Of a stretch of 64,000 bases of DNA, positions 11,717 through 15,585 are shown in pieces (positions within the stretch are counted from its first letter, which is position 1; each line of letters begins with the position of its first letter). The notes beneath the pieces were generated by a model. That model did no database searches and was not told the origin of the DNA. It saw only the letters and a program-made list of their open reading frames with translations. Source of the DNA: Notoacmeibacter ruber (GTDB taxonomy: Bacteria > Pseudomonadota > Alphaproteobacteria > Rhizobiales > Rhizobiaceae); the NCBI RefSeq assembly GCF_003668555.1, contig NZ_RCWN01000001.1, forward strand, positions 1,474,501 through 1,538,500, written 5' to 3'. A program made the translations under genes and the position numbers.

Positions 11717-13108
11717 TCAGGCTTCGCTGGTCGCCTCGGCCTCCGCAGAAGCCGTTCCCGTGCCGAATTCATCGTCATCTTCAGCCATCAGCTCTTCACG
11801 GCTGACGGTCTTGTCGCTCACCTCGACCTGTTCCATCAGGTGGTCGATGACCTTCTCTTCGAAGATCGGGGCGCGAAGCGCATTCACCGCATCGGGTGTA
11901 TTGCGATAGAATTCCATCACCTGCTGCTCCTGACCGGGATAACGGCGAAGCTGTTCACCGAGAGCCCGCTGCAGTTCTTCATCGGTGACGGTGATGCCTT
12001 CCTTCTCGCCAATAGCCGAGAGCACCAGGCCAAGGCGAACCCGGCGGGCGGCAAGCTTGTTATAATCCGCGCGCGCTTCTTCCTCGCTCGTACCTTCGTC
12101 CTCGAAGCTCTTGCCGTTGCGCTCCAGGTCTGCTGACACCTGGTTCCAGATATTGTTGAACTCGGCCTCGGTCAGCTTCTCGGGCGTCTCGAACTGATAG
12201 CGCTCATCCAGAGCATCGAGCAGCGAACGCTTCACCTTCTGCCGGGTCATCTGGCCGTACTGGCCCTGGATCTGGTCGCGAACGATCTCGCGAAGCTTGT
12301 CCATGCTCTCCAGACCGAGCTTCTTGGCCAGTTCGTCGTCGATTTCCTGATCCTGTGGAGCAGCGACTTCGTGCACTGTCACATCGAATGTGGCTTCCTT
12401 ACCCGCAAGGTGTTCGGCGCCATATTCCTCGGGGAACGTCACGGTGATCGTCTTCTCGTCACCCTTTTTCAGACCGACGAGCTGTTCCTCGAAACCCGGA
12501 ATGAACTGGCCGGATCCGAGAACAAGATTGGCGCCCTCGGCCTTCCCGCCGTCGAACGGCTCGCCATCGACCTTGCCGAGATAATCCAGTGTCACGCGAT
12601 CGCCGTCTTCCGCAGCGCCGTCCTTGGTCTCATAGGTCCGTGCGGACTGGGCAATCTGCTTGACCTGGTCCTCGACTTCCTCGTCGGCGACCTCGACCAC
12701 CGGCCGCTCGATCTTGATGTCGGAGACATCCTGTAATTCGAACTTCGGGACGATTTCGTATTTCAGATCGAATTCGAAGTCCTGCTCGCCGGCAAGAATC
12801 TTTTCGGCCTCGTCCTGATCCTCGGTCATCACGACCTCGGGCTGCATCGCCGCCTTCTCGTCGCGCTCGGAAATCACGTTGCGCGTGGAGTTGGAAACGA
12901 TGTCGTTCACGATCTCGGCCATGAAGGACTTGCCGTACATGCGGCGCAGGTGAGACGTCGGCACCTTGCCGGGCCGGAAGCCCTTGAGCCGCACCTTATC
13001 CTTGGAATCGTTGATCCGCTCCATCAGACGCGATTCCATGTCCGCGGCCGGAACGACGACCTTGATTTCGCGCTTCAGGCCTTCGTTGAGCGTTTCGGTT
13101 ACCTGCAT
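11717..13108 (-). CDS. tig: trigger factor (ribosome-associated chaperone/prolyl isomerase)
   Basis: 463 aa from the ATG at 13108; an upstream ATG at 13129 would add seven unconserved residues. Trigger factor binds ribosomal protein L23 and shields nascent chains. The ribosome-binding loop GFRPGKVP is at 43-50 in the N-terminal domain. The FKBP-type domain spans about 168-248 ([40 protein letters not shown]). The C-terminal substrate-binding domain runs to about 440. It ends in an acidic tail (EDDDEFGTG... EAEATSEA). It is convergent with radC and shares a terminator with it. Confidence 0.97.
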
Positions 13109-13202
13109 GTTCACTCTCTTTTGTCGCATGTGGGAGATGAACCGGCTTCCTCAGTTCGCCGGATGCACCTCCTGCAAAATTCGGTCGTTGCGAGACTGGA
13201 CC

Positions 13203-13284
<82 letters not shown>

Positions 13285-13585
13285 CCATGCCGATGGGAAT
13301 CCACCCGCAAAAGCGCGGCTCTCTTATCACGGGCTTTCGCCGCTTCAAAGGGAAAATCGGCGCCGTTTCGCAGGAATTCCATCGAATGTGCCGGCAGGTC
13401 CCCGACCGAAATCGCTGACGGGGCAGTAAAGAAACCGTTAAACGAAAACGCCTCCAGCCTTGCGCTGTTTGCACCGCACCATTGCAAAGCTATCACTTCT
13501 CTTGTGGGTCCAAAAATAGCAAATGCATATCCAGCAGGCAGCAATCAGATGCCTTCTTGTGCAGACGCATTACGAGGAAAACGAA
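13285..13585. other. 301-bp gap upstream of the DUF1127 gene
   Basis: No convincing open reading frame on either strand. It contains a possible heat-shock-type promoter at 13459-13484 (listed separately) and the leader of the DUF1127 gene. Short runs of open frame here are shadows of the tRNA-Leu/tig boundary and lack ribosome sites. Confidence 0.6.
13459..13484 (+). promoter_or_regulatory. possible RpoH (heat-shock sigma) promoter
   Basis: CTTGCG at 13459-13464 and CCATTG at 13479-13484 are separated by 14 bases. This resembles the alphaproteobacterial RpoH pattern (CTTG, then CCAT at about this spacing). Transcription would begin near 13491, about 95 bases before the DUF1127 start. RpoH control of DUF1127-CcsR loci is known in Rhodobacter. 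The match is partial. Confidence 0.4.
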
Positions 13586-13726
13586 ATGAGCATTTTCGCA
13601 AACTACCGCCGCTGGCGCATGTATCGCAACACGGTCAACGAACTGTCCCATCTGAGCGACGAACAGCTGCGCGACATCGGCGTTTACCGCGGTTCTATCG
13701 AGAAAGTGGCACGGCGCAGCCTTTGA
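13586..13726 (+). CDS. DUF1127 small protein
   Basis: 46 aa, beginning MSIFANYRRWRMYRN. The ATG at 13586 has GAGG upstream at eight bases. The protein has the DUF1127 pattern: a basic aromatic N-terminus followed by ELSHLSDEQLRDIGVYRGSIE, a short helix-turn-helix-like arginine-rich unit. Small DUF1127 proteins bind RNA and affect small-RNA and RNA turnover in several alphaproteobacteria; CcaF1 of Rhodobacter sphaeroides is the clearest case. There, too, the gene is followed by CCUCCUCC-loop RNAs, as here (13909-14079). A transcript with the downstream hairpins, matured by RNase processing, is the natural inference. Confidence 0.88.
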   Translation: MSIFANYRRWRMYRNTVNELSHLSDEQLRDIGVYRGSIEKVARRSL

Positions 13727-13768
13727 TGCTGAGCCAGATCTACGGACGACACAAATTGAAAACTGTTT

Positions 13769-13796
13769 AGGGCCGCTCCGCAATTGGGATGGCCCT
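13769..13796 (+). terminator. hairpin after the DUF1127 gene (terminator or attenuator)
   Basis: AGGGCC at 13769-13774 pairs with GGCCCT at 13791-13796 and is followed by TCTG. The stem is short, the 16-base loop is long and the U-run is poor. Read-through into the downstream RNA region is therefore likely. Confidence 0.4.
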
Positions 13797-13871
13797 TCTG
13801 CTATTCGCTCGCGGAAGGCCAGCGAGGGCAGATATCCCCCTCATGCAATGCTGCTATGCAACATAAATGGT

Positions 13872-13893
13872 AGCGACACCGACCGCGGTCGCT
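13872..13893 (+). repeat. hairpin just upstream of the CCUCCUCC hairpin series
   Basis: AGCGAC at 13872-13877 pairs with GTCGCT at 13888-13893; inside it GACCGCGGTC is a perfect 10-base palindrome (13881-13890). It is followed by TTAAATGTTTT. It could be a processing site, a weak terminator for the DUF1127 message, or the 5' structure of the small RNA. Confidence 0.4.
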
Positions 13894-13908
13894 TAAATGT
13901 TTTCTCGA

Positions 13909-14079
13909 CCGGGGCGGAAAACTCCTCCTCCTAATACCGCGCCGGACCATATTCGCCGAAGCCAACTCCTCCTCCCATGGCTTCGACGGAAGGCGAGAGC
14001 CGGTCATCCTCCTCCCAGACCGGTTCGAACGCAAAAGGCGCCCGTCGGATCCTCCTCCCCCGACGGGCGTTTTGCGTTT
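13909..14079 (+). ncRNA. four-hairpin CCUCCUCC-loop small RNA region (cuckoo/CcsR type)
   Basis: Four consecutive hairpins each place an anti-Shine-Dalgarno-like CCTCCTCC in the loop. Hairpin 1 is 13909-13945 (CCGGGGCGG/CCGCGCCGG, one mismatch, motif at 13922-13931). Hairpin 2 is 13957-13985 (CGAAGCCA/TGGCTTCG, motif 13966-13976). Hairpin 3 is 13998-14025 (core CCGGTC/GACCGG, motif 14008-14016). Hairpin 4 is 14039-14069 (CGCCCGTCGG/CCGACGGGCG, motif 14051-14059), followed by TTTTGCGTTT, so it doubles as a terminator. The motifs recur every 42-44 bases while the stems differ in sequence and stay paired, which shows selection for structure. Position after a DUF1127 gene matches the CcsR RNAs of Rhodobacter sphaeroides and the cuckoo RNA family. 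Confidence 0.85.
14031..14079 (+). terminator. intrinsic terminator formed by the fourth CCUCCUCC hairpin
   Basis: GCAAAA at 14031-14036 and TTTTGC at 14070-14075 extend the perfect 10-bp stem 14039-14048/14060-14069 across a GG bulge, and a U-rich run follows. This is the strongest terminator in the locus and would end the DUF1127/small-RNA transcript before trmFO. Confidence 0.75.
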
Positions 14080-14157
14080 CGGGGGCACTGCCGAAACCTT
14101 GTTGTGTCTGAAGAGACAAGCCCCTATTGCCGGCGAAGCAGCTACGGGAGATGTATC

Positions 14158-15585
14158 ATGACGGATCAACCCATTCATGTTGTCGGCGGCGGACTTGCGG
14201 GCTCCGAGGCGGCCTGGCAGATCGCGCGTTGTGGTATTCCCGTGATATTGCACGAGATGCGAGGCGTGCGCGGTACTCCCGCCCATCATACCGACGGCCT
14301 GGCCGAACTGGTCTGCTCGAACTCTTTCCGCTCGGACGACGCGTCCGCGAATGCCGTGGGCGTCATTCATGCGGAAATGCGCCTGGCGGGATCACTGATC
14401 ATGCAATGCGCCGATTCCAATCAGGTGCCGGCGGGCTCGGCTCTGGCTGTCGATCGAGTCGGGTTTTCCGACGCGGTCACGGCTGCGATCGACAACGAGC
14501 CACTGATTACGGTGACGCGGGAAGAAGTGACCGGTCTCCCGCCCTCTGAATGGGACCAGACGATCATCGCCACCGGCCCTCTCACCGCGCCCTCATTGGC
14601 CGAAGCAATTGCCAAGGTAACAGGTTCAGATGCTCTGGCCTTCTTCGACGCGATTGCCCCGATTGTGCACTTCGATTCGATCGACCTCGACACGGCCTGG
14701 TTCCAGAGCCGTTATGACAAGGTCGGGCCTGGCGGCACTGGAAAGGATTACCTCAACTGCCCAATGGATGAGGCGCAATACGGCGCCTTCATCGATGCTC
14801 TGCTTGCCGGCGACAAGACGGAATTCAGGGAGTGGGAAGGCACGCCCTACTTCGATGGCTGCCTGCCGATCGAGGTGATGGCGGAACGTGGTCGTGAAAC
14901 CCTGCGCCACGGTCCCATGAAGCCGATGGGCCTGACGAATGCGCACCATCCCGACAAAAAGCCTTATGCGGTGGTTCAGCTTCGGCAGGATAATGCGCTC
15001 GGCACGCTCTACAACATGGTCGGTTTTCAGACGAAGCTGAAATATGGCGCTCAGGCTGAGATCTTCCGAATGATCCCGGGCTTGCAGAATGCGGAGTTTG
15101 CCCGGCTCGGCGGCATACATCGCAACACCTATCTCGATTCGCCGCGGCTTCTCGATTCGTCTCTTTCGCTCCTGGCCCGTCGCGGGCTTCGCTTCGCCGG
15201 CCAGATCACCGGTTGCGAGGGTTACGTCGAATCGGCTGCCATCGGCCTTTTGGCAGGACGTTTCGCAGCCGAGGAGCGCGCCGGTGGCGTCCCCGACATT
15301 CCGCCCGCGACCACGGCGTTCGGCGCGCTTCTTAATCACATTACGGGCGGCCACCTCTCAACCGATGACGAGCCCGGTAAGCGTTCGTTTCAGCCCATGA
15401 ATATCAATTTCGGGCTTTTCCCACCTTTGGCGCCGGGGACCAAGCTCAAGCCCGACGATTGGGAAGGCCGTTTCCGGGGCAAAGACAAGGCTCTGGCAAA
15501 GAAGCACGCCCTTTCCGCGAGGGCCTTGGGCGATTGCAAAGCATGGCTGGGCGGAAACGATGGAGCAGCGCAGGCGGCAGAATAG
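14158..15585 (+). CDS. trmFO: methylenetetrahydrofolate-tRNA-(uracil-5-)-methyltransferase TrmFO
   Basis: 475 aa from the ATG at 14158, with GGGAG eight bases upstream; the frame is open leftward through the small-RNA region, but that part is not protein-like. TrmFO makes 5-methyluridine at position 54 of tRNA using methylene-THF and FAD. The FAD-binding motif [11 protein letters not shown] is at 10-20. [11 protein letters not shown] at 51-61 holds C53, the position of the catalytic cysteine in Bacillus TrmFO. A C-terminal [17 protein letters not shown] closes the flavin site. It ends two bases from the stop of the convergent DUF4153 gene. Confidence 0.96.

Follow-up and report, generated by a model that had tools for sequence, protein, structure and literature searches.

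The closest described relatives of the locus reported here are RNAs in which adjacent hairpins carry one shared loop motif. Two of them, RFMSmelA075 and RFMSmelA099, consist of three and four hairpins, respectively, each with a CCUCCUCCC loop on a variable stem, and a single family with a varying number of hairpins has been proposed for this type (PMC3927594). In Sinorhizobium meliloti, the three loops of NfeR1, the founder of the ar14 family, are redundant in their action on the mRNAs of ntrB and two ABC transporters, and the NfeR1 promoter is bound and activated by the regulator LsrB (PMC10746234). In the CIN1 locus of Rhodobacter sphaeroides, the DUF1127 gene ccaF1 precedes the anti-Shine-Dalgarno hairpins of CcsR1-4 on the same strand; protein and four RNAs arise from one precursor under an RpoHI/RpoHII promoter, and CcsR-like RNAs are often associated with short DUF1127 proteins in Alphaproteobacteria (PMC10253847). 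An RNA-binding role of DUF1127 proteins is disputed (PMC12501420). LsrB has been equated with VtlR (PMC11975290), which in Brucella activates AbcR2 together with three DUF1127 genes (PMC12595884) and in Agrobacterium tumefaciens directly activates abcR1, atu1667 and vrsA (PMC7486931). Both the RNA family and its DUF1127 neighbourhood were already known; what the present locus appears to add, judged from its sequence, is candidate LsrB-type boxes before both the DUF1127 gene and the RNA array.

The locus lies in a window of 64,000 nucleotides (the whole stretch of DNA analysed) from Notoacmeibacter ruber. Pfam bears out both of the neighbours named by an earlier sequence-only reading, tig (11717-13129, minus strand) and a GidA/TrmFO-type gene (14158-15585, plus strand); the latter, labelled GIDA in Pfam, is presumably trmFO, the name used in that reading and here. 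A tRNA gene (13203-13284, minus strand) also stands between tig and the locus. The 46-aa DUF1127 gene claimed upstream of the hairpins is real (13586-13726, plus strand; PF06568, E 1.6e-14, 53.7 bits). Its frame is open upstream as far as an ATG at 13523, which would add the stretch 13523-13585 and give 67 aa, but the lengths of relatives favour the shorter form. The only other DUF1127 match in the genome falls in an 85-aa open frame (L118; C1:1577316-1577399, minus strand, 34.3 bits). As in CIN1, the DUF1127 gene and the array are adjacent on the same strand.

The array (13909-14073, plus strand) comprises four hairpins, each with CCUCCUCC in its loop. Hairpin 1 (H1) occupies 13909-13945 with its motif at 13924-13931, hairpin 2 (H2) 13954-13988 with the motif at 13968-13975, hairpin 3 (H3) 13993-14032 with the motif at 14008-14015, and hairpin 4 (H4) 14035-14073 with the motif at 14051-14058. 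The CCTCCTCC starts at 13924, 13968, 14008 and 14051 are thus 44, 40 and 43 nucleotides apart, so that the sequence-only reading had the number of hairpins right but not their spacing, given as 42-44. Its placement of a motif in every loop was also sound, folding having left all four unpaired; in H2-H4 all nine bases of CCUCCUCCC are unpaired, as in the ar14 loop, while the H1 motif lacks the ninth C, reading CCUCCUCCU in the window versus CCUCCUCCC in both congeners compared below. The stems had been called well paired, which holds for H2 (-13.3 kcal/mol; 4 of 200 shuffles as good), H3 (-19.1 kcal/mol; 0/200) and H4 (-25.1 kcal/mol; 0/200) but not for H1 taken alone, whose -15.3 kcal/mol was equalled by 18 of 200 shuffles and does not exceed chance. 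None of 100 shuffles folds as well as the region 13727-14082 taken as a whole (z -4.14). Across both strands of the window CCTCCTCC occurs eight times, whereas shuffles average 2.91 and 2 of 100 attain eight, and none of 200 base shuffles placed four motifs on one strand within 200 nt, from which we conclude that the cluster is not due to chance. The proposed terminator on the last hairpin is plausible from the position of H4 at the end of the ar14 model, and H4 probably serves as one, but it is missing from the calls of the terminator scan, which gave one other hairpin, 14076-14097, where shuffles led us to expect 1.8.

Membership of the array among the cuckoo/CcsR/ar14 RNAs, and the identity of its loop as an anti-Shine-Dalgarno sequence, were both correctly predicted. 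The recommended covariance-model search returned a full-length match to Rfam RF02344 (ar14) at 13948-14075 on the plus strand (model positions 1-123 of 123) with 86.3 bits, above the gathering score of 58.8. The match begins with H2 and covers H2-H4; H1 lies outside it, giving the window four hairpins where ar14 has exactly three and where NfeR1 likewise has three. In other respects the array resembles ar14/NfeR1 in its CCUCCUCCC loops, its variable stems and an LsrB-type box upstream. Adjacent hairpins of varying number, a shared loop motif and divergent stems also place it with the cuckoo/SmelA075-SmelA099 type, and no difference was seen from SmelA099, a comparison made with its description, not with its sequence. 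The supposition that one motif per hairpin within a continuous RNA makes the locus a variant is not supported, since three or four such hairpins are the form already described (PMC3927594, section 2.7). The RNA is real and well supported, and neither its family nor its type of gene neighbourhood is new. When 41 genomes (that of N. ruber included) were searched with the ar14 model, 32 matched with an E of at most 0.001 and 25 scored over the cut-off; within the same family 24 of 25 genomes matched, all 24 over the cut-off, and in other families of the order 8 of 16, one of them over the cut-off.

Comparison with relatives provided the alignment requested for the stems and separates them from the loops: the stems covary and the loops are fixed, as an anti-Shine-Dalgarno RNA predicts, with one exception in the form of the evidence for H2. 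The outcome that the sequence-only reading had named as refuting, varying loops on stems without covariation, was not observed. Arrays at least 80% alike to a retained one, including L020 and L021, were removed, which left 31 three-hairpin arrays to align. RNAalifold predicted a structure for H3 and H4 in which 21 of the 22 consensus pairs have both bases altered in some relative (9/9 in the H3 helix, 12/13 in that of H4) and 90.1% of cells pair. Its covariation score is 0.545, whereas shuffles average 0.261 and slid versions give 0.061-0.150; the score is favoured by the structure having been predicted from the same 31 sequences. RNAalifold gave no structure for the H2 alignment of 26 arrays, in our view because its stems do not align in register, and a swap test was used instead. 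In this test, applied per hairpin to 26 of the 31 arrays (L048, L054, L029 and both arrays of L032 omitted), each left flank was folded with its own or a foreign right flank. Own partners paired at -16.2 kcal/mol in H2 versus -7.4 for foreign ones (1.7% of foreign as good), at -16.5 versus -7.5 in H3 (1.4%) and at -27.6 versus -18.3 in H4 (3.4%). For 250 hairpins from 59 sequences, a set with 136 distinct left flanks and hence many close relatives, the means were -19.9 kcal/mol with own and -9.0 with foreign right flanks, and at least six pairs formed in 249 of the 250 own combinations versus 75% of the foreign swaps. The stem of H1 differs in the two congeners yet pairs well there: own partners gave -15.3, -14.7 and -17.5 kcal/mol, whereas the window and congener partners exchanged gave -9.8 to -12.1; both congeners share the left side, so this counts as a single difference.

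The sequence surrounding the array was compared among three congeneric genomes, the window and two others, and the identities that follow refer to segments picked after the alignment had been seen. Relative to the window, H2 is 98-100%, H3 97% and H4 94-98% identical, H1 81% and the DUF1127 gene 75-78%. Two short palindromes stand out from the remainder of the locus, which is 38-65% identical (40-49% in 14078-14157; 47-48% in 13727-13843, a low estimate in which MAFFT misplaced the hairpin that follows DUF1127). Box 1, TTGCACCGCACCATTGCA, a LysR-type palindrome before DUF1127 (13469-13486, plus strand), belongs to a stretch (13469-13487) that is 95% identical to each congener, the preceding 69 bases being 38% and 46% identical. 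Box 2, TGCAATGCTGCTATGCAA, an LsrB/VtlR-type palindrome between DUF1127 and the array (13844-13861, plus strand), belongs to a stretch (13844-13864) that is 100% identical in all three, and in each the box starts 80 nt upstream of the H1 motif. The VtlR motif is CAATGCAGCCATGCA (PMC12595884). Box 2 agrees with it at 13 of 15 positions, close to the putative promoter of the array, while box 1 agrees at 11 of 15, a weak match with four mismatches; box 1 may also be an LsrB site, although the case is weaker than that for box 2. The window box reads TGCA-N5-GCAT on the minus strand, compared with TGCA-N6-GCAT as written for NfeR1 (PMC10746234).

Box 2 is the sole VtlR site with at most two mismatches on either strand of the window (mean 0.1 in 20 shuffles) and the sole exact CAATGCNGCNATGCA in the 3.25-Mb genome. 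With one mismatch, 11 further genomic sites appear, against 2 in the control; 10 of the 11 fall within open frames of 80 codons or more. The 18-base form TTGCANNGCANCATTGCA, derived from both boxes, has two exact genomic matches, the boxes themselves, and two with one mismatch. The same kind of site recurs in relatives. In 83 sequences (the window, two congeners and 80 named loci kept from at least 591 in a scan with trmFO), VtlR sites with at most two mismatches number 20 in the 2.2 kb before trmFO (177,539 bp), one per sequence, versus 1 elsewhere (568,279 bp), and TGCA-N5/6-GCAT in either direction occurs 155 versus 82 times (0.87 versus 0.14 per kb), the loci being related and the counts uncorrected for coding versus intergenic composition. 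The remaining 63 of the 83 lack any such VtlR site in the DNA before trmFO. Between the window's DUF1127 gene and box 2 stands a terminator-like hairpin (13769-13796, plus strand, -16.5 kcal/mol) that would mark the end of the DUF1127 mRNA. It is not among the calls of the terminator scan and 9 of 200 shuffles fold equally well; its counterparts in the two congeners are stronger (-22.5 and -25.1 kcal/mol, n=2) and are followed by AGCTTTTGC. Downstream of box 2, CTTAAAT (13892-13898, plus strand), read from the sequence, could be a -10 element, with transcription then starting near 13905. A promoter consensus scan listed nothing in 13000-14400 and there is no clear -35 before the array, which would fit an activator-dependent promoter. 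A short stem at 13872-13893 overlaps the possible -10; it is weak alone (58 of 200 shuffles as good) and is present in the congeners too, with one A-T to G-C change. Of the 11 one-mismatch VtlR-like sites, the sole one not covered by an open frame of 80 codons or more lies at C1:520238-520252 on the plus strand (L140).

A regulator suited to these boxes is encoded in the same genome. A LysR gene directly beside trxB specifies a protein that matches PDB 9HH1 (E 5.4e-128), the LsrB structure of A. tumefaciens (PMC11975290), and by this likeness it is an LsrB orthologue; among the 25 NCBIfam models listed for it, none reached its cut-off. Taking boxes, stems and loops together, we consider that the array is, with a probability of about 0.72, a trans-acting sRNA of the ar14/cuckoo type that is switched by LsrB from its own promoter, in parallel to DUF1127, and blocks Shine-Dalgarno sequences. 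The redox-responsive LysR regulator LsrB (VtlR) would switch on the array through the box at 13844-13861, with a start near 13905, and the DUF1127 gene, having an LsrB-like box and a terminator-like hairpin of its own, would yield its protein in parallel with the RNA. Each stem would hold one CCUCCUCC loop open, the loops would block the start of translation by pairing with the purine-rich Shine-Dalgarno sequences of mRNAs, and the four loops would offer repeated docking sites. By analogy with NfeR1, the array RNA should silence mRNAs with purine-rich ribosome sites. The nine-base complement, GGGAGGAGG, is found 3-9 nt before an ATG at 4 places in the genome versus 1 in the control; numbers this small do not show target enrichment, and the target set would therefore have to rest on shorter pairing. 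The genes behind the four places, which we take to be those for a GlnE-like adenylyltransferase, a branched-chain keto acid dehydrogenase E1, an ABC permease and an enoyl-CoA hydratase, are leads only.

The sequence-only reading had likened the locus to CcaF1-CcsR, and the likeness holds in so far as a DUF1127 gene sits beside the RNA. Under the corresponding mechanism, a single transcript from a promoter before DUF1127 would be cut by RNase E, with help from the DUF1127 protein, into mRNA and sRNA. The gene order is that of R. sphaeroides (PMC10253847), and among relatives the arrangement can be very tight. In 77 of the 80 named loci (three were too short to count; tig was recognized in 33, the others being represented simply by the DNA before trmFO), arrays precede trmFO in 57, a DUF1127 gene in 52 and both in 43, so that both elements recur among relatives, a recurrence that lends this place no evident role in translation. 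In 21 of these loci fewer than 250 nt separate the end of a DUF1127 gene from an array downstream of it, and 19 of those have the stop 20-29 nt before the first motif, which suggests co-transcription there; in the other 22 loci with both, every DUF1127 gene lies downstream of the arrays. In the window, the distance from stop to first motif is about 197-198 nt and contains the terminator-like hairpin and the invariant LsrB-like box, neither belonging to the R. sphaeroides pattern, and a shared transcript is on that account doubtful. Furthermore, the R. sphaeroides promoter is of the RpoHI/RpoHII type (PMC10253847), and no RNA binding was seen for YjiS, the DUF1127 protein of Salmonella (PMC12501420). 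Processing of one precursor is consequently an unlikely account of the window, whose sequence speaks against simple co-transcription without deciding the matter; we read DUF1127 and the array as two units with a shared regulator.

Rather more doubtful is a role as a sponge or decoy, in which the loops, copies of the CCUCCU at the 3' end of 16S rRNA, would mainly tie up Shine-Dalgarno sequences or some other factor in bulk and have no specific targets. Fixed loops on stems free to vary would be expected of such a device, and relatives with as many as four arrays at one locus would be consistent with a dose effect, but NfeR1 has named targets, which it silences through pairing in their start regions (PMC10746234). 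That the array has no RNA function, as a chance motif cluster or a piece of coding sequence, is barely credible: open frames of 189 aa (minus), 62 aa (minus) and 44 aa (plus) do cross the region and the trmFO frame extends upstream without a stop as far as 13897, but the shuffles (0/200 with such a cluster), the ar14 match and, strongly, the covariation speak against it.

The preferred reading, an LsrB-switched sRNA made in parallel to DUF1127, may be one state of a more general arrangement. We give roughly even odds to the view that in Rhizobiaceae the DNA before trmFO (bounded on its other side by tig wherever tig was recognized) forms an LsrB-governed module whose DUF1127 genes and arrays multiply and rearrange, the redox sensor LsrB setting both protein and RNA through repeated boxes, and arrays switching between the tail of a DUF1127 mRNA and a free sRNA with its own LsrB box. 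The former arrangement is seen in 11 of 13 Mesorhizobium loci (the remaining two end at contig ends) and the latter in the genus of the window. If true, the module would join the VtlR-DUF1127 story from Brucella with the LsrB-NfeR1 story from Sinorhizobium, which stand separately in the literature consulted. LsrB and DUF1127 do occur together in some openly licensed papers, and in that literature, partly represented by excerpts, no paper was found joining LsrB, DUF1127 genes and such arrays. The candidate control sites predict one redox regulator for both a DUF1127 protein and a multi-loop anti-Shine-Dalgarno RNA and mark where the two could be separated, so that the reason why DUF1127 genes travel with such RNAs becomes testable by promoter fusions.

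By exact CCTCCTCC count, the arrays of relatives comprise 59 with three hairpins, 24 with two and 4 with four. Four loci (L105, L077, L092 and L024) hold three or four successive arrays, with nine motifs each in L077 and L092, as if whole arrays had been duplicated. The closest named trmFO among the matches listed is from Shinella (82%), and the genera of the closest named trmFO genes among those matches are presumably Rhizobiaceae-like. Several searches looked for related elements beyond the locus. The -35/-10 signature that precedes NfeR1 homologues, CTTAGAC-N17-CTATAT, has no occurrence with at most three mismatches in 12801-14400 even with the spacer allowed to be N16..18, and an ar15 (AbcR) search found no match in this genome and none in the controls either. 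A class-wide search for three motifs returned 10 of 385 genomes (N. ruber included), the other nine hits looking, by eye, like tandem or low-complexity repeats and being rejected; its built-in control was uninformative, the motif reading the same backwards. Within the N. ruber genome, the sole other CCTCCTCC pair at array-like spacing lies at C1:2073017-2073075 on the plus strand (L116). The ar14 model has two further matches in this genome. One (L003:1501-1643, with its match at C1:136419-136531, minus strand) was rejected because it is better explained as a candidate ar7 RNA (57.8 bits, under the gathering score of 60). The other, a diverged ar14-like candidate (L002:1501-1621; C1:2031944-2032064, minus strand), scores 37.4 bits, below gathering, and contains one CCTCCTCCC stretch and one TTTCCTCCCC stretch.
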